Assembly (NCBI RefSeq): GCF_009789675.1
Contig: NZ_CP046913.1
Coordinates: 2,790,001-2,854,000 of the forward strand
Direction: 5' to 3'
Length of the DNA: 64,000 nucleotides
Origin: Paraburkholderia acidisoli
Lineage (GTDB): Bacteria; Pseudomonadota; Gammaproteobacteria; Burkholderiales; Burkholderiaceae
Positions within the stretch are counted from its first letter, which is position 1. Each line of letters begins with the position of its first letter. The notes beneath the pieces were generated by a model, which did not search any database, was not told the DNA's origin, and saw only the letters and a program-made list of their open reading frames with translations. The position numbers and the translations under genes were made by a program. Shown here in pieces: positions 9,175 through 43,220 of the stretch.

Positions 9175-9533
9175 GCCGCGGGGGGTGCGCGGGCACGGCC
9201 GGACGGGCCGGATCCGCGCAGCCGGCGCCGCGCTGCGGCAAGCGGGCGCAGCCGGCCGCGGCGGCCTTGCCGCGCCTGCCCGGCGCGCCGCCGGACCCGC
9301 CACGGAACCCTTCCCGCAAAAGGTCGTCGAACCCGCCGTCGAGCCGACCGGCCGACGAGGTTACAATTGCGGTTTTCGCGATTCGCGCGGCGCCCGGCGC
9401 CGTGACGCGCATCGCGCCCCCTACGTGTTGCCAGCGCCGCCCCGCGCTTTGTTCGAAGATGGCGAGGCCACCGGTTCCCGACGCCTCGCGCGCGGCCAGC
9501 TTCACGTCGCCACCCTGACATGCAGAGAATTTC

Positions 9534-34833: not shown

Positions 34834-35189
34834 GGTCGATTGAGTGCGGCGGCTTTCCGTTAGCGGGCGCGAGCCTGTCGTGCCGGGCGGCCCGCCTGGG
34901 CGGCGCCACGTGGGCGCCCTCGCTTTAGCGGCGCGCCATCATATAGCAGAGCAGTGCCGCGCGGTCCGCTGCGTTGCGTTGCAGGGTGCTGAGGGCGATC
35001 ATCGCGCAGCCGCCAACGCGCGTCGAGCCGGCCAAACGGCATAGGACGAATCCACGCGCGAACGGCGTTGCGAAGGCTCGCCGGGCCGCCTGTAGAATGT
35101 CCCGCCGAATTTCGCTTTATACGCTCCGGCTTCGCTTCACGTTACGTTTCCCGTTTCGTTTTCCGCCGCCGACGCGCCACCACGCCGCC
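34834..35189. other. Spacer upstream of the Eco57I-type methyltransferase
   Basis: This 356-bp divergent spacer has no gene I can support. The methyltransferase frame stays open upstream to 34974, but the sequence there is not protein-like. TAGAAT at 35092-35097 could be a -10 box about 95 bp before the ATG at 35190. Confidence 0.5.
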
Positions 35190-37799
35190 ATGTCCGACAC
35201 GCTCACGCCGATCCGCCCACGCAAGCCGCGCACGCAGCGCGCCCGCGCGGCGCTCGACGGCGGCTTCTACGCCGGGCTGCTGCACCTCGCGGGCTTGCGC
35301 GAAAGCGTAACGGGCACGCGGCGCGGCATCGAGCGGCACGAACCGTCCGCGCGCGTAAGCGGCACGCTGATCGAACTCGCGCTCGAGCGCATTGCTGCGC
35401 AGACGCCATCGCCAGCCGCGACATCGCTCGACGAGGCGCAACGGTTCGCGCTCGCGCTGCGTATAGGCATCGCGTGGCTCAGCCGGCTCGTTTTGCTCAA
35501 AGTGCTCGAAACGCGTTGCGTCGCGCTGCACGACGACAACCCCGCCTGTGCGTTCCTGAATGCGCGCACGCTCGGCTCGTTTCGCGATCTCGGCGCGCTT
35601 TGCGAAGCCGTATTCGGTCACGGCGATGGCAATCGCGATGGCAACCGCGACGCGCGCTTCGCTCATCTGCCGCGCCTCGGCGCCGCGCTGATCGACACCG
35701 GCCTCGACGCGCGCCTTATCGACATGAGCACGCTCGACGACGCCGCCAGCTTGCCGCGCTGCGCGCACGACACCGCTGGCGAAACGCCCCTGCTCGCCGG
35801 TTTGCTCGACTTTTTCGCGGCGTTCGACTTCTCGACCGGTGTCGCGCACGTCGCGTCGTCGGCGCGGCCGTGCATCGACGCCGCCGCGCTCGGCCTCGTC
35901 TTCGAAAAGCTCAACGGCTATCGCGACGGCGCGTGGTACACGCCCGCCAGCGTCGCGATGGAACTCGCGCGCGCGGCCGTCACGCGCGCGGTGCTCAGCG
36001 CATTCAATCGTGCGCTGGGCAAGCAGTACGACAGCGTCGATCAACTAAACGCTCGACTGAACGCTCAGCGATCCGAAGCGATTTTCGATCGCGACGCCGC
36101 GCGCGCCATCTTCGACGCGATCCGCGTGTGCGATCCCGCCGTGGGCTCGGGGCACCTGCTGGTATCCGCGCTCAACGAATTGCTCGCGCTCAAGGCGCGA
36201 TTCGGCCTGCTCGAAGGGCTCGGCGACAGCGCGCTCACGATCGTGGCGGACCGGCTTCGCGTCACGCGCGCGAACGGCGAGCCGCTTTGCGCGCGGCGCG
36301 ATCGCGAGGCGTTGCGCACGCTCGACGCGATGCTGTACCGCGAGAAACGCCGCCTCATCGAACAGTCGCTGTTCGGCGTGGATATCGACGCCGACTCCGT
36401 GGGCATGGCGCGCGTGCGGCTCGCGATCGAACTGCTCGAACACGCCGATTTCACCGAGCGCTTGCCCGAGCTCGCGGCGAATCTCAAGCAAGGCAATGCG
36501 GCGTTGAGCGATGTCGATGTTGCGAACGCCGCCGATACCGCGGCGCCTGCGCACGACGACCGCGGCATCGCGTTCTCGTGGCGCCGCGCCTTTCCCGCGC
36601 TGTTCACGCAAAACGGGCACGCGGCGGGCGCGAACGGCTTCGACGCCGTGATCGCCAATCCGCCCTATATCGATTCCGAGCGCATGATCAACGCCGGGCA
36701 GAAGCCGCTGCGCGACGCGCTCGCGCGGCGCTGGCCGAGCGCGAAAGGCAACTGGGATCTCTACGTCGTCTTCATGGAACTGGGTCTCGCGCTGCTGAAA
36801 CCGGGCGGCGCGATGGCGTACCTCACGCCCGACAAATGGCTCGCGAAACCGTTCGGCGAGGCGTTTCGCGCGCGGCATCTGCGCAAGATCGAGCGCATCG
36901 TCGCGCTGGGGCGCGGCGTGTTCGACGAGGCGCGCGTCGACGCCATCGTGACGATCTTTCGCGCGGAGGATCTCGATACGCTGAGCACCGCGCGGCTCGA
37001 CGGCACGACGCTTGCCGAACTCACGCGCGTGAACAAGACGGCGCTCGCCGCGCCGTGGACGCTCGACGCGCTGCTCTCGCCGCATTACGCGTTCGCGCGG
37101 CGCCTCGCGCTCGCGCATCCGGCGCTCGGCACGCTGCTCGGTTGCGAGAATGCCTGCGCGACCGCCGACGCGTATCGCCTCGCGCCGCTCATCGAAGAAG
37201 CCGAAGAGAACGTCGATTTCGCGCGCCACTATCGCGTGGTGAACACGGGCACGCTCGCGCATTACGTGTCGCGCTGGGGCGCGAAACCGATGACTTATCT
37301 GGGCCGGCAATATCGGGCGCCGGTCGTCGATCGCGCGCGCTTCGCCGCGACCTTCGCGAACGGCTATCGCGCGAAAGCGGACGCGAAGAAGGTGATCGTC
37401 AAAGGGCTCACGCGGCTCGACGCGGCGCTCGATCTCGCCGGCGACACGATCCCCGGCAAGACCACGCTGATCCTGCGCAGCCACGACGAGGCCGTGCTCA
37501 AGTTCGCGGCCGCGCTGCTCAACTGCCCGCTCTCGGGATTCCTGATTCGCGCGCAGTACGGTGCCTCGAGCTACAACGGCGGCGTGGCGTTCACGAAGGC
37601 GATGATCGACGCGTTGCCCGCGCCCGGCGATCCCGCGTTACGCGCGCGCATCGTGGCGCTCGTCGACCGTTTGCTGGCGTTCGCGCGCGCGCATGAGCCA
37701 GCGTGCGCGCAGGCGATCGCCCGCGAAATCGACATGGCGATCTATGTGGCGTTCGGGCTGACGGCAGCGGAGATCGACGTGGTGGAGAAGCGGGGGTGA
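35190..37799 (+). CDS. Large Eco57I-type DNA adenine-N6 methyltransferase (orphan, possible type IIG)
   Basis: This 869-residue protein has the type IIG/Eco57I methylase layout. An N-terminal helical region (about 1-300) precedes SAM motif I CDPAVGSGHLLVSALNE (about 313-329). The catalytic NPPY is at residues 490-493. GNWDLYVVFMELGLALLKPGG and YLTPDKW follow, and a TaqI-like target-recognition region runs from about 600 to the end. No PD-(D/E)xK nuclease motif is evident, and no restriction, specificity or BREX-type partner gene is adjacent. It may therefore be an orphan or nuclease-lost type IIG enzyme. Composition matches the chromosome. It ends 80 bp before the left border of the mobile element. 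Confidence 0.85.
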   Translation: MSDTLTPIRPRKPRTQRARAALDGGFYAGLLHLAGLRESVTGTRRGIERHEPSARVSGTLIELALERIAAQTPSPAATSLDEAQRFALALRIGIAWLSRLVLLKVLETRCVALHDDNPACAFLNARTLGSFRDLGALCEAVFGHGDGNRDGNRDARFAHLPRLGAALIDTGLDARLIDMSTLDDAASLPRCAHDTAGETPLLAGLLDFFAAFDFSTGVAHVASSARPCIDAAALGLVFEKLNGYRDGAWYTPASVAMELARAAVTRAVLSAFNRALGKQYDSVDQLNARLNAQRSEAIFDRDAARAIFDAIRVCDPAVGSGHLLVSALNELLALKARFGLLEGLGDSALTIVADRLRVTRANGEPLCARRDREALRTLDAMLYREKRRLIEQSLFGVDIDADSVGMARVRLAIELLEHADFTERLPELAANLKQGNAALSDVDVANAADTAAPAHDDRGIAFSWRRAFPALFTQNGHAAGANGFDAVIANPPYIDSERMINAGQKPLRDALARRWPSAKGNWDLYVVFMELGLALLKPGGAMAYLTPDKWLAKPFGEAFRARHLRKIERIVALGRGVFDEARVDAIVTIFRAEDLDTLSTARLDGTTLAELTRVNKTALAAPWTLDALLSPHYAFARRLALAHPALGTLLGCENACATADAYRLAPLIEEAEENVDFARHYRVVNTGTLAHYVSRWGAKPMTYLGRQYRAPVVDRARFAATFANGYRAKADAKKVIVKGLTRLDAALDLAGDTIPGKTTLILRSHDEAVLKFAAALLNCPLSGFLIRAQYGASSYNGGVAFTKAMIDALPAPGDPALRARIVALVDRLLAFARAHEPACAQAIAREIDMAIYVAFGLTAAEIDVVEKRG

Positions 37800-37835
37800 G
37801 GCGGCGGGCGTAATGGATTTCTAGGCCGCAAAACG

Positions 37836-37870
37836 AAAAAGGGTTACCGCAGGAATGCGATAACCCTTCT
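37836..37870 (-). terminator. Terminator, probably the original tRNA-Thr terminator
   Basis: AAGGGTTA pairs with TAACCCTT and, inside it, CGC with GCG. On the minus strand the stem ends in TTTTT. It lies 9 bp beyond the duplicated tRNA 3' end, the place where the tRNA terminator would be without the inserted element. Confidence 0.75.
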
Positions 37871-37878
37871 CGAATGTT

Positions 37879-37895
37879 TGGTGCCGGCTGCAGGA
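37879..37895 (-). repeat. Left attachment site (duplicated tRNA 3' end)
   Basis: Seventeen bases identical to the 3' end (including CCA) of tRNA-Thr at 42635-42651, in the same orientation. Similarity weakens beyond it (ATCAA against CTCGAA). Confidence 0.88.
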
Positions 37896-37954
37896 ATCAA
37901 ATTTTGCCCTGCAATCGCCGTCAGGTAAAGCTCTGAAGGAATCTACAATGATTT

Positions 37955-37974
37955 GTACCAACAAAAATACCAAC
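37955..37974. promoter_or_regulatory. Candidate left integrase arm-type sites
   Basis: GTACCAAC (37955-37962) and ATACCAAC (37967-37974) are repeated 12 bp apart just inside the left border. The same octamer GTACCAAC occurs near the right border at 42481-42488. Confidence 0.45.
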
Positions 37975-38146
37975 AAAAAAAATTGTTGTTTATTTGCTTT
38001 AGACGCTAGGCCGGCATTTGACAACGTGGGCTTGCTCACAGTTTTCGCTATCCCACCGCATTTAGAATCGCCGTCCATAGACCAAGGTCAACGAAGCTAG
38101 CTAACAACGGCTTCGCGCCGACAGATAACGACAACGGAGATCATCC

Positions 38147-38578
38147 ATGAACAAAATCCTTCTTGCACTTTTCTGCTTCGCCAGCGTCGCGCCAGTCGCC
38201 CACGCGCAAGATTCCCAAAAGCCAGAAGTCGCGTTTGCAAATACCCTCTTCGGTATCGCGCACCAGTGTCAGTTTCAATACGGTCTGGACCGTAGCCTAC
38301 AGGACCAAGCACGATCATATGGACAAGCCGCGCCCGATGCGACCGAGTCACTTGTCTCGTGCTATCGGGCGGGCAAGACTGATGGCAAAGCGGCGTTCGA
38401 TGCAATAACAAGCCGACCGCACAACGCACAGATTAAGGCTGATATCAAAATGGCCTATGCAAGCTGGCTAACTTGGATGGACGCAATTGGCCGAGCCAAT
38501 GAAGAGGAGTCGCCGCCCGCGCAACGCGACTTCGAAAAGTCAGCGAACATTTTGAAAGTCGATGTGGAAACCGACTAG
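38147..38578 (+). CDS. Exported small protein of unknown function (element cargo)
   Basis: I do not recognise this 143-residue protein. It begins with a clear signal peptide, MNKILLALFCFASVAPVAHA, cleaved before QDSQK, so the mature 123-residue protein is periplasmic or secreted. Two cysteines (in AHQCQFQYG and LVSCYRAGK) could form a disulfide. The rest looks helical. GGAG lies before the ATG. It is the only rightward gene in the element and its codon use is less GC-rich than the chromosome. As cargo next to a reverse transcriptase it may be unrelated, a surface-exclusion factor or an immunity factor; these are only guesses. Confidence 0.75.
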   Translation: MNKILLALFCFASVAPVAHAQDSQKPEVAFANTLFGIAHQCQFQYGLDRSLQDQARSYGQAAPDATESLVSCYRAGKTDGKAAFDAITSRPHNAQIKADIKMAYASWLTWMDAIGRANEEESPPAQRDFEKSANILKVDVETD

Positions 38579-38783
38579 CTGGCGGCCCGCATTCTCCGTG
38601 AGAACGCACCTCCAGAGACACGCCGATTCGAAACAAAATTGAAACTTGCTGCAAATCGCTTCCATCGCTCAGGGCCTTCGTCAGCAACGGATTACTTGTC
38701 GCGAAGGACACCCTGAGTGAATGCCTACCTACGCACCGGAGTTAACAAAGTTCACTCGCCCGCGAGGCATGCGACTCACAAAG

Positions 38784-40124
38784 CTATCCAAATGCTCTTG
38801 CAACGAGATCGTTGACGGCATCTGTAAGCGGCTGGATGCCCACACCTCGTCTCTGTGCGAGTTGAAGCGCTGATTGAAGCACGGCTGCTCGGTCATCCGT
38901 TGGCATCGCAATAATGAAGCCACGTAGCGCTCTGCTTGCTCGTGACAACGACCTATCGTTGTTGCGCTTGTCACTCGCCAGCCAAGCGTCAAATTTCTTG
39001 AAGAACGCATCTAGAGTTGACTCGGAAACGGTCAAGCGCACATGCCGGCGCTCGCCATACTGGTTGTCGGATGTTTCAAAATTGACCCCGAGGTAGTCAA
39101 ACCCTCCCGCGCACGTTACCTCTCCTCTTTCGATTGAACCAAGCTGCAGCGGCCCAACTGGATGCTCTACCAAATTGGATCGGTAGCGGGAGACTTTGGC
39201 ATCGACATCCTCAGGCGAATACCCCAAAATCAACGCGTTATCGGCGTATGGGAATACGTCTTCTATCCCCGCGAATGCACTTTCGAGGAGATAGTATGCA
39301 ATGAGGGGCGACGAGGCCGCTCCTTGAAGCAGAGCCAGCGGGCGACGGGCAGCAACGCTACACGACGCTATAGAGGGCGGAGCACCGTTGCTTTGAGCCC
39401 GTGCCCAGTCCTCAGGTCGCATACACACCGTGTTTTCCAGAACCTGCCGTGTCAGCGGCAGAATCTGGGTGGCTCGGCGTAAGTCCACAGAATCGAAAAA
39501 CGCTTTTACATCCACACTCGCGTAATGGCTGATCGCGGGATCGCCTAGTGCTTCCCTAACCTCGTATAGGCCAGGCACGCGGCCCCCGTCGTTCAGCATC
39601 TGCTTCCACAACCGCGCCGCAATAAGCGGCTCCAGCGCCTGCTTAACCAACACGTGCCGCGCGCGCATGCTTGGCCCGAACCTCCAAGTCAGACGCTTCG
39701 CCCCGTCAGCTTTTGGAACGTATTTCGGTACGCGGGATTCCGCAGAGGGCCAACCCGGATGCAGCTTGCGCCTTAGCTCTTCGCCGCGCCCGTCCCAGTG
39801 GCTGACGAAGCTGTGCTCCCAATTTGAGCCGCGAGGTTCGCCTTGACTGAATACCTGGCGAAGTGCCAACAATTGGGTGTCATCGGAGGCCAGATAACGC
39901 CCTACCGCAACACACAACTGTTTCAAGCCTCGACCGTCCCGCGCGAGCAATGCGGCTTTCTCAATGTCGCCGCGTAGCACGCGCTGGTGAAAAAGAGCCT
40001 CACGCCTCCATTTCCGATAGCCAGGCGGCAGCTTATGCGCTGGCCGGGGGGCGCTTCGCGATGCCGCAACAAACAAATGCGCGGAGGACGTAGATCGCGC
40101 AAACCTTGCCTGAATTTTCGCCAT
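38784..40124 (-). CDS. Divergent reverse transcriptase with YADN active site
   Basis: This 446-residue protein shows the ordered RT blocks. VPKADGAKRLTWRFGPSMRARHVLVKQAL, read in parts, covers RT motifs 1-2 (about 133-164). Motif A is YASVDVKAFFDSVD with D205, motif B is QGAASSPLIAYYLL (267-280), and motif C is FPYADNALILG, with Y293-A-D295-N296 in place of YADD. FDYLGVNF (342-349) is motif D/E. No maturase, endonuclease or Cas1 domain is evident, so it is neither a typical group II intron protein nor a CRISPR RT. It follows the AlpA-like gene by 2 bp and is translated with it. No retron msr-msd-like RNA was recognised. It may belong to the unassigned or defence-associated RTs. Confidence 0.85.
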   Translation of the reverse strand: MAKIQARFARSTSSAHLFVAASRSAPRPAHKLPPGYRKWRREALFHQRVLRGDIEKAALLARDGRGLKQLCVAVGRYLASDDTQLLALRQVFSQGEPRGSNWEHSFVSHWDGRGEELRRKLHPGWPSAESRVPKYVPKADGAKRLTWRFGPSMRARHVLVKQALEPLIAARLWKQMLNDGGRVPGLYEVREALGDPAISHYASVDVKAFFDSVDLRRATQILPLTRQVLENTVCMRPEDWARAQSNGAPPSIASCSVAARRPLALLQGAASSPLIAYYLLESAFAGIEDVFPYADNALILGYSPEDVDAKVSRYRSNLVEHPVGPLQLGSIERGEVTCAGGFDYLGVNFETSDNQYGERRHVRLTVSESTLDAFFKKFDAWLASDKRNNDRSLSRASRALRGFIIAMPTDDRAAVLQSALQLAQRRGVGIQPLTDAVNDLVARAFG

Positions 40125-40126
40125 GA

Positions 40127-40327
40127 TTATTCGCCCGCGTACGGAGGGCGTGACTCCATCCAAGCATCAATTTCCGATGCACGCCAAGCGACTGCCCGCA
40201 CGCCAATGCGGACCGGTCCTGGAAAGCAGCCGTCTTTTACCAGACGGTAAACGGTGGCGCGTGACAGGCCCACGCGTGCCATAACAATAGGCAAGCGCAA
40301 CAAGCGTTCTGCAGAAGGTTGAGTCAT
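40127..40327 (-). CDS. AlpA-like/MerR-type helix-turn-helix regulator
   Basis: This 66-residue DNA-binding protein has the AlpA pattern. RLLRLPIVMARVGLSRATVYRLVKDG, read in parts, is the helix-turn-helix, followed by FPGPVRIGVRAVAWRASEIDAWM. Such proteins act as excisionase or as regulators in P4-like elements. GAGG lies before the ATG at 40327. A good promoter with an inverted repeat lies directly upstream, and the RT gene follows after 2 bp, so it may control its own operon, including the RT. Confidence 0.9.
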   Translation of the reverse strand: MTQPSAERLLRLPIVMARVGLSRATVYRLVKDGCFPGPVRIGVRAVAWRASEIDAWMESRPPYAGE

Positions 40328-40345
40328 CTTGACGCCTCGTGACTG

Positions 40346-40395
40346 TTTATAAGACGGGTCAATAGTGCGTCAATGTGCAAGCCTAGCGTTAGGCT
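40346..40395 (-). promoter_or_regulatory. Promoter and inverted repeat of the regulator-RT operon
   Basis: On the minus strand TTGACG (40373-40368), a 16-bp spacer and TATAAA (40351-40346) form a strong sigma-70-type promoter. The perfect inverted repeat AGCCTA-GCGT-TAGGCT (40380-40395) sits 6 bp upstream of the -35 and is a candidate operator. The leader would be only about a dozen bases. Confidence 0.72.
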
Positions 40396-41254
40396 AAACC
40401 CCCCACCTGAAATAAGGGCGGGCTTTTGCCTCTATTCGGTTCCACTGTTCGTCCCACGGTTGCCGCCGACGATGCCGCCCGTAACTCCTGCGCGCAGTCC
40501 TTACGGCTCGAATAACGACGCTAGGATCGCCTAACGGATCAGGGAGAATGCCCTCCAATAGGTCGTTAAAATCCTTGATAGCTCGCACCTGCGGCACCTG
40601 CCCATAGGTCAGCCACCACGCCCGAATCAAGGCCATCGCACAGATACGAGGAAACGACATCGGGCGCCCGTTTTGTCCGTGCGCAGCAGCTTCTTTACTC
40701 GCAAATGCCCCGAGCAGCGTTTCAGGCCCGCTCTTTCGTGTCCGCCTTGATCCAATGCGCTTCGGGTCGGTAGCGACTTCGCTTGGGAGCGGAATTTCGG
40801 TCAATAGCTCGATCCAATGCTTCACGTTTTGCGCGAGTATGGAATTTGAGTATTCGCTTTGGTACGCAACCGCTTGCAATTTGTGCAAGGAGGCTATCGT
40901 GGAGTTGAATTGTTTCTGTAGGGGATCGAGCGCGCTAGCATTCCCCGATTGGACGGCCTGAAGGCGCGAAGCCAGCAAAACGACAAAATGGCGGGCTAGT
41001 TGCTCTGAATTGCGAACGCGTGCTCGCGCGCGTCGAATGCGCCTATGTTGGTTCCGGCAACCTGGGGCGGCGCGCTCCTCTTCATTTCGCTCGCGCGCCC
41101 ATTTCTCGAAGTGAAGTGCTTGCCAATCCGGTCTCTCGGACGAAAAGCTGCGCAAGCTCACTTGTGCGGAGGTGCCGTAGCTCAAGAGATGATCGGGCAA
41201 CGAGCACATCGTCACACCCGCTGCGTCGCCTGTTTTGTTTGCAACGCGTTTCAA
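40394..41254 (-). CDS. Unrecognised 286-residue element protein
   Basis: No family is recognised. The protein is soluble and basic, with an Arg-rich segment (RRIRRARARVRN, about 70-80), a helical middle (SALDPLQKQFNSTIASLHKL) and a basic tail (RTARRSYGRHRRRQPWDEQW) that could bind nucleic acid. Its ATG overlaps the integrase stop in ATGA, so the two are translated together. Its own stop lies in the inverted repeat before the regulator-RT promoter. It could be a replication or excision accessory of the element or a partner of the reverse transcriptase; sequence alone does not decide. Confidence 0.75.
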   Translation of the reverse strand: MKRVANKTGDAAGVTMCSLPDHLLSYGTSAQVSLRSFSSERPDWQALHFEKWARERNEEERAAPGCRNQHRRIRRARARVRNSEQLARHFVVLLASRLQAVQSGNASALDPLQKQFNSTIASLHKLQAVAYQSEYSNSILAQNVKHWIELLTEIPLPSEVATDPKRIGSRRTRKSGPETLLGAFASKEAAAHGQNGRPMSFPRICAMALIRAWWLTYGQVPQVRAIKDFNDLLEGILPDPLGDPSVVIRAVRTARRSYGRHRRRQPWDEQWNRIEAKARPYFRWGV

Positions 41255-42474
41255 AGTGCTGCCGCCCTTGCTGCCGATCCCGCCGACGTGCGCGCTTTGT
41301 GCTCCAATCCATCCAGCAAATCAGCCCATGCTTGCATCATCCTGCGCCGCTCCGGCAGATATTGCGCTCGATTGTAGCTATCACGCACCTTGTCTTTTGG
41401 ACGATGCGCAAGCTGACGCTCGATATGATCCGCGTTGAAACCGCGCTCATTCAAGATTGTCGATGCCGTTGTACGGAAACCGTGACCGGTCACGCGCCCG
41501 TGATATCCCATTCGATAGAGCGCGAAAAGAATCGTATTTTCGCTTATGGGGCTAGTCGCCTTTGTTCTTCCGGGGAAAACCAAACCCTCCCCACCAGTCA
41601 GCGCATGGAGGCGGCGCAACACCGAAACGGCCTGAGTCGAAAGCGGAACAATATGCCCTTCGCGCATTTTCATCCGCTCCGCTGGAATACGCCATTCCCC
41701 AGCGGCAAAGTCAATCTCTGCCCAAGTTGCCCCGCGTAATTCGCCAGTTCTGACGAAAGTGAGCATCAGGAGTCGGATCGCAAGGCCGGTTTGCTCTTCG
41801 CCGTCATAGCTCGAAAGCCTGCCCAGGAACTCGGGTAGCTCGCTTTCTTTAAATGCCTTGTAGTGAGTAACGGGCACGGTCGTAAGCTGCCCGCTGAGCC
41901 GTGCCGCTGGATTTACTTCGACCAAGCCGCCAGCGCATGCGAAGTCAAACACAGCAACGCATCGCTGCAGCACGCGGTGAGCAATCTCGTGCGCGCCCCT
42001 AGCTTCTACCTTTCGAATTGCAGCCAAGATATCGCTTCGCGAGATTGCACCCACGGCTTTTGTCCCGAACGCAGGAAAAAGGTCACGCTCCATAGAACTA
42101 AGGATTTTCGCGCCGTGATTATCTGACCACTTCAGCTTTCTCGTGTTGTGCCACTGGCGGGCCACAACTTCGAAGGTATTTTGCTGAGCGGCTAGCCGGC
42201 GTTGATCTACGTCCGCGCGATGGGACACGGGATCAATGCCCGCCTTGACAAGTTTTTTTGCCGAATCTCGACTCTCGCGCGCTTCCGCCAGCGTCACTTC
42301 TGGATAAACGCCAATGGCAAAAGTCTTCTGGCGGCCTGCCAATCGGTAAGCTAGACGCCAGTATTTCGCGCCAGTTGGCAACACATACAAGTACATGCCT
42401 CCAGAGTCGGAGACCTTGTAGGGTTTTTCGCGCGCCTTGAGGCCGCGAACGGCAGCGTCTGTCAGGAGGGGCAT
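41251..42474 (-). CDS. int: P4-type tyrosine integrase
   Basis: This 407-residue site-specific recombinase has an N-terminal arm-binding DUF4102-type domain (MPLLTDAAVRGLKAREKPYK, then SDSGGMYLYVLPTGAKYWR). A central core-binding domain and a catalytic domain follow. Catalytic residues are Arg in LTFVRTGELRG, His and Arg in GHGFRTTAS, His in QLAHRPKD and Tyr in RAQYLPERR. It integrates into and excises from the tRNA-Thr 3' end. The ATG at 42474 fits the family start; an in-frame ATG at 42498 adds eight residues. Neither has a strong ribosome site. All catalytic residues are present, so the element may still be mobile. Confidence 0.93.
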   Translation of the reverse strand: MPLLTDAAVRGLKAREKPYKVSDSGGMYLYVLPTGAKYWRLAYRLAGRQKTFAIGVYPEVTLAEARESRDSAKKLVKAGIDPVSHRADVDQRRLAAQQNTFEVVARQWHNTRKLKWSDNHGAKILSSMERDLFPAFGTKAVGAISRSDILAAIRKVEARGAHEIAHRVLQRCVAVFDFACAGGLVEVNPAARLSGQLTTVPVTHYKAFKESELPEFLGRLSSYDGEEQTGLAIRLLMLTFVRTGELRGATWAEIDFAAGEWRIPAERMKMREGHIVPLSTQAVSVLRRLHALTGGEGLVFPGRTKATSPISENTILFALYRMGYHGRVTGHGFRTTASTILNERGFNADHIERQLAHRPKDKVRDSYNRAQYLPERRRMMQAWADLLDGLEHKARTSAGSAARAAAL

Positions 42475-42480
42475 AGGCCG

Positions 42481-42516
42481 GTACCAACACTCGATCATGC
42501 GGTGCCAACGAATATA
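42481..42516 (-). promoter_or_regulatory. Right candidate arm sites overlapping the integrase promoter
   Basis: GTACCAAC (42481-42488) and GTGCCAAC (42502-42509) lie just before the integrase start. TATATT on the minus strand (42516-42511) is a possible -10 box adjoining the second site, so integrase binding could repress its own gene. Confidence 0.42.
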
Positions 42517-42568
42517 CCATCACCTTCCTGAGATTTTCTGGAGTATCCTAAGACAGCTTGAGATGAAA

Positions 42569-42602
42569 AAAAGCCCGCAAACCGTTGCCGGCGCGGGCTT
42601 TT
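42569..42602 (-). terminator. Terminator downstream of tRNA-Thr (carried by the element)
   Basis: AAAAGCCCGC pairs with GCGGGCTTTT. On the minus strand it is followed by more T residues, 33 bp beyond the tRNA 3' end. It lies inside the element and would replace the terminator displaced to 37836-37870. Confidence 0.85.
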
Positions 42603-42634
42603 GAGACGACTTGCGATATTGCGAGACTTGAATG

Positions 42635-42710
<76 letters not shown>

Positions 42711-42728
42711 GTAGCCCGCTATTCTACC

Positions 42729-43220
42729 TTACTTCACGATCTTGAGGTGACCCTTGCCGCCGCCCTTGTTACCGCCGTCGTCGTCCTTGTCGGTGGTGCG
42801 TGCGGCGCTCGGCGCAACGGGTTCGACCGCCGGTTCGTCGTGCGCTTCCTGCGCGCCAACGTCTTCGTGATCTTCGGAATTGAGCACGTCGTCGGCGTCA
42901 CCGGGCGGCGCTTCAACGGGGAACGCCATGCCCTGGCCGTTCTCGCGCGCGTAGATCGCGAGCACGTTCGGCACCGGCACCTCGATGCGATGCGACTTGC
43001 CCGAGAAGCGCGCGTGAAACTCGATCATCTCGTTGCCCATCTGCAACTGGCTCGTGGCCTCGAAGCTGATGTTCAGGACGATCTCGCCGTCGCGCACGAA
43101 CTGGCGCGGCACGCGCGTGCGGTTGTCGACCCGCACCGCGATGTGCGGCGTGAAGCCGTTGTCCGTGCACCATTCGTACAGCGCACGCAGCAGATACGGC
43201 TTGGTGGAAATTTCTTGCAT
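42729..43220 (-). CDS. sspB: ClpXP adaptor, stringent starvation protein B
   Basis: This 163-residue adaptor binds ssrA-tagged proteins and delivers them to ClpXP. The folded N-terminal domain (STKPYLLRALYEWCTDNGFTPHI) runs to about residue 110. A long acidic, flexible linker ends in the ClpX-docking peptide HLKIVK at the C-terminus. The ATG at 43220 follows AAGGA; a TTG codon just upstream is not needed. It lies 79 bp after sspA, the usual pairing. Confidence 0.96.
   Translation of the reverse strand: MQEISTKPYLLRALYEWCTDNGFTPHIAVRVDNRTRVPRQFVRDGEIVLNISFEATSQLQMGNEMIEFHARFSGKSHRIEVPVPNVLAIYARENGQGMAFPVEAPPGDADDVLNSEDHEDVGAQEAHDEPAVEPVAPSAARTTDKDDDGGNKGGGKGHLKIVK

Follow-up and report, generated by a model that had tools for sequence, protein, structure and literature searches.

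Introduction

Published work, as far as the accessible text of the papers goes, separates the roles of the two Asp residues in motif C of reverse transcriptases (RTs) and other polymerases. In Ty1 RT, replacement of the second Asp by Asn (D211N) leaves an enzyme that polymerises in vitro with a 223-fold lower kpol, an unaltered Kd for dNTP and a preference for Mn2+; the same change abolishes transposition in vivo, and D211E blocks polymerisation (PMC2148107). Asn is the natural residue at the second Asp position in birnavirus and Mononegavirales polymerases, and both motif C Asp residues of viral polymerases are described as coordinating metal (PMC4634563), at odds with the picture for G2L4. 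The metal ligands named for DRT3b are D182, I183 and D278 of YVDD (PMC13174585). To obtain dead controls, several studies mutate both Asp residues together (PMC5498913, PMC10415136, PMC13174585), as in HIV-1 D185N/D186N, which is dead with both residues changed (PMC5498913); AbiA D240N is inactive, the accessible text leaving unstated which Asp this is (PMC11077055).

The RT considered here, P0001, is encoded by Paraburkholderia acidisoli within a stretch of 64,000 nucleotides (the window; contig NZ_CP046913.1, positions 2,790,001 to 2,854,000), and its motif C reads YADN. Ty1 D211N has the same residue change, but it is a laboratory mutant of a yeast retrotransposon RT and no family relative. 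The group II intron RTs and G2L4, a domesticated group II-like RT, are among the best general matches of P0001 (TIGR04416, 6me0, 9d4s). Motif C of G2L4 is likewise a variant, YIDD, and this enzyme is more active with Mn2+ (PMC12337344). In contrast to these enzymes, P0001 is without an intron RNA, has Asn for the second Asp, combines HPxGPL with the loss of Lys in motif D, and is carried on an AlpA/integrase element. The RTs of Cas6-RT-Cas1 proteins provide its best PADLOC match (a Cas-type model) and a structure, 7kft, that is matched by the family profile, yet P0001 has no Cas domain in the genes scanned, and the FADD proteins L003 and L060 branch with the references, apart from it. The UG, Abi and DRT defence RTs (UG17, UG4 and DRT3a models) are stand-alone proteins like P0001, with UG17 the best class-specific model. 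UG17 RTs usually have a SLATT domain nearby (PMC8934634). P0001, however, scores very low against these models, and neither a SLATT domain in the genes scanned nor an ncRNA was recognised.

In its tRNA insertion, tyrosine integrase, AlpA and accessory genes, the element itself resembles defence-carrying P4-like satellites and islands of the CP4-57 type. That said, it is only 4.76 kb long, and no psu/sid/delta, capsid-size, replication or helper-phage packaging genes were recognised in its five ORFs (Pfam, NCBIfam, PHROGs).

The tRNA-Thr Element

The initial annotation placed the RT on a small tRNA-borne element, and the surroundings bear this out. A tyrosine recombinase (integrase) gene (41251..42498, minus strand; Phage_integrase, Phage_int_M and Arm-DNA-bind_3 matches, phrog_1) lies beside its integration target, a tRNA-Thr(tgt) gene (42635..42710, minus strand; ARAGORN and Rfam tRNA). 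A repeat search identified the 3' end of this tRNA gene (42635..42657) as the proximal att repeat and a 23-bp sequence 91% identical to it (37879..37901) as the distal one, the latter also placed by collinearity with empty sites. Between them the gene order is int-ORF285-alpA-RT-ORF143: ORF285 (40394..41254, minus strand; 286 aa counted from TTG), alpA for an AlpA-family regulator/excisionase (40127..40327, minus strand; Phage_AlpA E=4e-20), the RT gene, and ORF143 (38147..38578, plus strand), with a signal-peptide-like N-terminus by eye. Scans against Pfam, NCBIfam and PHROGs gave no family for ORF285 or ORF143.

Empty sites were sought in 58 genomes of the genus with the tRNA side, and 19 loci from other genomes were examined. 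In five of these (L029, L030, L031, L032 and L034) the window's left flank begins inside the tRNA 3' end, so that the target is unoccupied there; the flank is further off in four (L023, L024, L026 and L028) and was not found in the other ten. Just outside the element lies an Eco57I-type (type IIG) restriction-methylase-like gene (34974-37799), which is chromosomal and no part of the cargo, since its 3' part adjoins tRNA-Thr in the five empty-site relatives. GC3 is 0.54-0.61 in the element genes but 0.78-0.89 in three chromosomal genes that flank them; by this measure the element appears foreign to the host genome. Its DNA matched 120 plasmid records, the best 20 of which align over only some 80 bases at the tRNA. 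In genome G285 a sister integrase occupies the same tRNA-Thr and is followed by other cargo that includes resolvase-like and DNA adenine methylase-like ORFs, named by eye (L062:239-9722); visual inspection of its 31 listed ORFs (120 aa or more) showed no RT.

Relatives and Distribution of the Asn

Protein searches brought up few relatives. The first gave five besides the query among the 7,996 best candidates scored, a second returned the same six proteins, and a third with a wider alignment added P0007. The closest, P0002 (58% identity), likewise has YADN, so the close homologues are not uniformly YADD, as they would have to be to speak against the initial annotation. P0002 has 281 aa on a JGI contig of 2.5 kb and spans about residues 135-411 of P0001, without roughly its first 134 and last 35 residues; a contig edge, a gene-calling effect or a truncated gene may each account for this. 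P0001 and P0002 are the two YADN proteins found. P0003-P0006 are 41-44% identical to P0001 and have YADD, and P0007, 29% identical, has YGDD; it is named as a Paraburkholderia caffeinilytica protein and is encoded letter for letter at locus L012 of genome G406, from the same genus. Another YGDD relative, L013 of genome G450, carries one in-frame stop.

A second Asn was found much further away. P0008 (L017:7171-8805, genome G1218), from another bacterial family and 22% identical to P0001, has HCDN (codons CAC TGC GAC AAC), having lost the Tyr of motif C too, and its Asn is aligned to N296 of P0001 by both MAFFT and hhalign. The stretch around it also holds a tRNA-Ala(ggc) and an integrase. The remote relatives L019 and L020 have YVDD, and the fragments L002 and L005 do not cover motif C. 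All 25 reference RTs have DD (the 18 of the tree and 7 others), these being proteins brought in by the searches or the UG17 model and no random sample.

The RT family of P0001 is rare. Counting its own genome each time, P0001 matched 4 of 398 genomes of the host family (besides its own, one with a C-terminal fragment and two with RTs of a group II-like kind), 5 of 144 of the genus (G406 and G450 with true relatives, two others with group II-like RTs), 1 of 399 of the order (E<=1e-12) and 2 of 398 of the phylum (E<=1e-10), the second being G1218 with P0008. Further genera yielded 2 of 32 genomes (G062 with the fragment, G048 with a group II-like RT), and none of 58 and none of 60 in two more sets. 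With P0008 as query, 3 of 119 genomes of its own family matched, G1218 and those with L019 and L020 (E about 1e-14); in its class G1218 alone did so among 230, at an E<=1e-15 that is too strict for relatives like L019 and L020. A genome contig scan returned the decayed L002 and the Cas-type L003, the latter an irrelevant match that was named by eye as a Cas6-RT-Cas1-like fusion; L006, L007, L010 and L011, whose YADD RTs branch with the group II-type references, were likewise set aside.

Mobile element collections added little. P0001 had no tblastn match in 50,697 phage records or 72,556 plasmid records, and five scans of viral contigs gave no relative. For P0008 the phage records gave no match and the plasmid records 47, none of which reaches 60% identity; of the best 20 among these 47, 13 carry a group II intron RT annotation, 5 lack a feature and 2 lack any annotation. 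The L020 RT matched no plasmid record. All told, the members of the group come from the window and two Paraburkholderia relatives, from Ralstonia and from one more distant bacterial family, and no description of an xxDN bacterial RT or of an alpA-RT module was found in open-access PMC text.

Active Site and Catalysis

The RT gene is an uninterrupted frame of 446 codons on the minus strand (38784..40124; ATG at 40124, stop ending at 38784), open throughout as first described from the ORF list and its translation. Codons 293-296 read TAC GCC GAT AAC (39237..39248, minus strand), and the reported YADN (Y293, A294, D295, N296) is thus correct. Counted from the same ATG, motif A, VDVKAFFDSVDL, covers residues 204-215 with D205 and F210 (39480..39515, minus strand), and motif B, QGAASSPL, covers residues 267-274 (39303..39326, minus strand) with an unusual Leu, L266, in front of it. 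The further claim that the active site is otherwise intact stands in part: D205, F210, Q267-G268-x-x-x-S272-P273 and FDYLGV of motif E are all present, but motif B is preceded by Leu (LLQG) and the motif D lysine is absent.

Both departures extend to relatives. The residue before QG is Leu in P0001 and P0002, against Pro or Val in the other relatives and the 18 tree references (motif B of L020 reads LPTG). The motif D lysine, as in GLxLxxxKT, is found in 18 of the 18 tree references and is missing from P0001-P0007, where HPxGPL precedes its site; P0008 has HPVGPL and the lysine. R144, D205, F210, Q267, G268, S272, P273 and D295 are kept throughout P0001-P0008. Membership of the RT superfamily can be read from the catalytic Asp of motif A and the first Asp of motif C, and D205, QGxxxSP and D295 do align with their counterparts in relatives and references; by the stricter mark of YxDD with two Asp residues, P0001 falls outside. 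Judged from these alignments, the active site of the family is unusual beyond motif C, and the loss of the motif D Lys together with the change from Pro to Leu before QG could signal a weakened polymerase.

How such an enzyme might work is suggested by the published mutants. The catalytic metals would still be bound by the motif A Asp and by the first of the two motif C positions, and DNA would be polymerised slowly, with Mn2+ preferred, as in the engineered Ty1 RT D211N; it is from other enzymes that we infer this altered metal use. Slow and tightly gated synthesis would be fitting if the enzyme has to be kept from acting on the cell's ordinary RNA and DNA. The reading favoured here, which we put just short of an even chance, is that P0001 is a selected single-domain RT, carried as cargo of the element and acting as a slow, Mn2+-preferring polymerase in some accessory function. 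It is unlikely, by comparison, that P0001 is a catalytically dead or nearly dead RT fold, kept for binding nucleic acid or protein, where it might regulate together with AlpA, for instance, or act as a structural partner. Such a fold would fit the eroded state of the active site, with N296, with L266 in place of Pro and with no Lys in motif D, and also the HCDN of P0008 with its loss of Tyr as well, but P0001-P0008 all retain the other dNTP-binding residues and with them the metal-binding Asp residues, which would not be expected of a dead enzyme.

Coupling with alpA

The stop codon of alpA lies 2 bp before the RT start codon in the window, and in L012 and L013 the two frames overlap (AAATGA). 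The main block of DNA homology between L012 and L013 begins close to the start of alpA and extends to about the RT stop codon, and alpA-RT is, on the strength of these arrangements, a conserved unit. ORF285 and ORF240, which has the same position in L012, are only weakly alike. A conserved ncRNA was considered and set aside, as the main homology block ends at about the RT stop codon; eight folds of four intergenic stretches gave z values of -2.3 to 0.1.

The 3' side of the RT gene in L012 is occupied by another secreted-looking ORF (231 aa), comparable in this to ORF143. Downstream of this YGDD relative a 19-bp direct repeat (CGTGCAACCGGTTTCAAAA; L012:8618-8636 and 9440-9458) surrounds a 0.8-kb cassette with a signal-peptide-like ORF. 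The remote YVDD RTs lie opposite an integrase gene (L019:1381-2673 and L020:1351-2655), and L020 has an HTH_17 gene upstream; the integrase-RT layout may be more widespread than the family of P0001.

The close linkage with alpA seen in the window and in both L012 and L013, and the presence of an integrase next to the RTs of P0008, L019 and L020 as well, would also be seen if the RT served the mobility or replication of its own element, for example by making DNA from element RNA during AlpA-driven excision, and had no part in defence. This is improbable, about as much so as a dead RT fold. The G285 element, whose integrase is a sister of the window's at the same tRNA-Thr (L035/L062), has other cargo with no RT seen by eye among the ORFs listed, and elements excised by AlpA and a tyrosine recombinase, such as those of the CP4-57 type, are not known to need an RT for this.

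If P0001 is cargo, as favoured above, induction of the element might lead to alpA and the RT being made together, the RT providing an accessory function that would most likely be directed against phages or rival elements. In E. coli, P4-like satellites carry anti-phage cargo next to the integrase, as reported in PMC9122126, and for this reason an accessory defence role is preferred among possible functions. Taken on its own such a role is plausible, though it remains the less probable case.

Constraint and Decay

Sequence comparisons speak for constraint. Over 275 shared columns, 78 are invariant in P0003-P0007, and P0001 keeps 63 of these and P0002 60. The two YADN proteins agree with each other at 68 of the 78 invariant columns, against 94 of the 197 others (Fisher p = 4.5e-10). 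Close to the motifs, the invariant columns changed in both are P266L (motif B) and N296, along with L297, replaced by A or M, and in motif E both E343D and F344Y. In neutral simulations of the P0001 gene, 31 of 300 runs were still free of stops at 90% amino acid identity, 7 at 80%, 3 at 75% and 1 at 60%. Values of dN and dS could be obtained for the YGDD pair L012/L013 alone, one of which carries the stop (0.20 and 0.62 by NG86, 0.22 and 0.49 by YN00), the YADN pair being judged from protein sequences.

The same YADN occurs in P0002, a separate protein with 58% identity, which makes a sequencing error unlikely; its motif and the stop simulation argue in the same way against a pseudogene, though P0002 is itself short. 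A related possibility is that P0001 is a decaying gene caught at an early step of inactivation. Decayed relatives do exist (the stop in L013, the fragments L002 and L005), the family is rare, and P0002, the only other YADN protein found, is short at both ends. We regard such decay as quite improbable all the same, in that the 58%-identical relative carries the same Asn and both the stop-codon simulation and the conservation test speak against drift.

Phylogenetic and Class Placement

The placement of P0001 among RTs was approached with profiles and with a tree of 28 sequences over 360 columns (LG+G4+F), its 18 references being of group II type and Cas type only; retrons, DGRs, Abi and DRT proteins were outside the tree and were judged from profile scores. 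Support was 98 for P0001 with P0002, 91 for P0001-P0006, 100 for P0001-P0007 and a moderate 79 for P0001-P0008, and P0001-P0008 with L019 and L020 are split from the group II-type and Cas references with a support of 100. Branches with YADD and YGDD lie between the two that have Asn, so Asn was either gained twice or is ancestral and was lost twice.

Profile matches are faint throughout. RVT_1 of Pfam matched P0001 below cut-off (E=1.3e-3), the NCBIfam group II RT model TIGR04416 gave 26.6 bits (3.1e-6) against a cut-off of 300, and the best PADLOC matches were with generic RT models, at most 27.8 bits (6e-7, a model of Cas type). The best class-specific UG model, UG17, gave 11.0 bits for P0001 (E=0.034) and 35 bits for P0008, and it scores up to 178.8 bits on unrelated RTs. 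Against PDB, the family profile matched the maturase 6me0 (E=1.3e-4), the Cas6-RT-Cas1 structure 7kft (E=0.0086) and G2L4 9d4s (E=0.18). The profile check called for at the outset thus assigned P0001 to no known class and gave it no annotation as a defence system.

Two negative observations of the initial annotation, the lack of an intron RNA and of a Cas1 fusion, held up. Rfam at E<=1 over 37700-42800 found the tRNA and one match far below gathering on the same tRNA, and a Pfam scan of the RT and five neighbouring genes gave no Cas domain. A group II intron RT was accordingly rejected on the missing intron RNA, the separate position in the tree and the low TIGR04416 score. A CRISPR-associated RT was rejected for want of a Cas1 or Cas6 fusion or neighbour among the same genes, and a retron because alpA ends 2 bp before the RT, which leaves no space for an RNA upstream, and no Rfam retron RNA was found (E<=1). 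A DGR seems less likely, as there was no Rfam match and no repeat pair of at least 16 nt other than att in 37000-43000. That P0001 belongs, as an ordinary though diverged RT, to one of the known classes (group II intron, Cas, retron, DGR, Abi or DRT) is very improbable, the faint group II and Cas-type scores and a tree built without four of these classes weighing less than the lack of an intron RNA, of Cas domains in the scanned genes and of a UG score above 11 bits, and than the separation from group II-type and Cas RTs. From the tree and the profiles together, the group of P0001 appears to be an unassigned RT group that is distantly related to group II-type RTs.

Implications

P0001 is a real and probably functional RT whose motif C is of the xxDN type. 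Since the Asn is shared by relatives, it resembles a retained feature of a rare RT group more than it does damage. A bolder proposal, tentative and rather doubtful, is that a cellular RT lineage works with a one-Asp (xxDN) motif C, in which the Asn, LLQG and a Lys-free motif D would be a re-tuning adaptation (Mn2+, slow or primer-free synthesis) for element-borne defence or signalling, with the same Asn reached in two separate branches.

The finding points to an RT group for which no description was found in open-access PMC text and that is coupled to AlpA on small elements in the window and its two Paraburkholderia relatives. YxDD is treated as essential in RTs, and with a natural xxDN branch to set against natural YADD relatives, the need for the second Asp can be put to a direct test.
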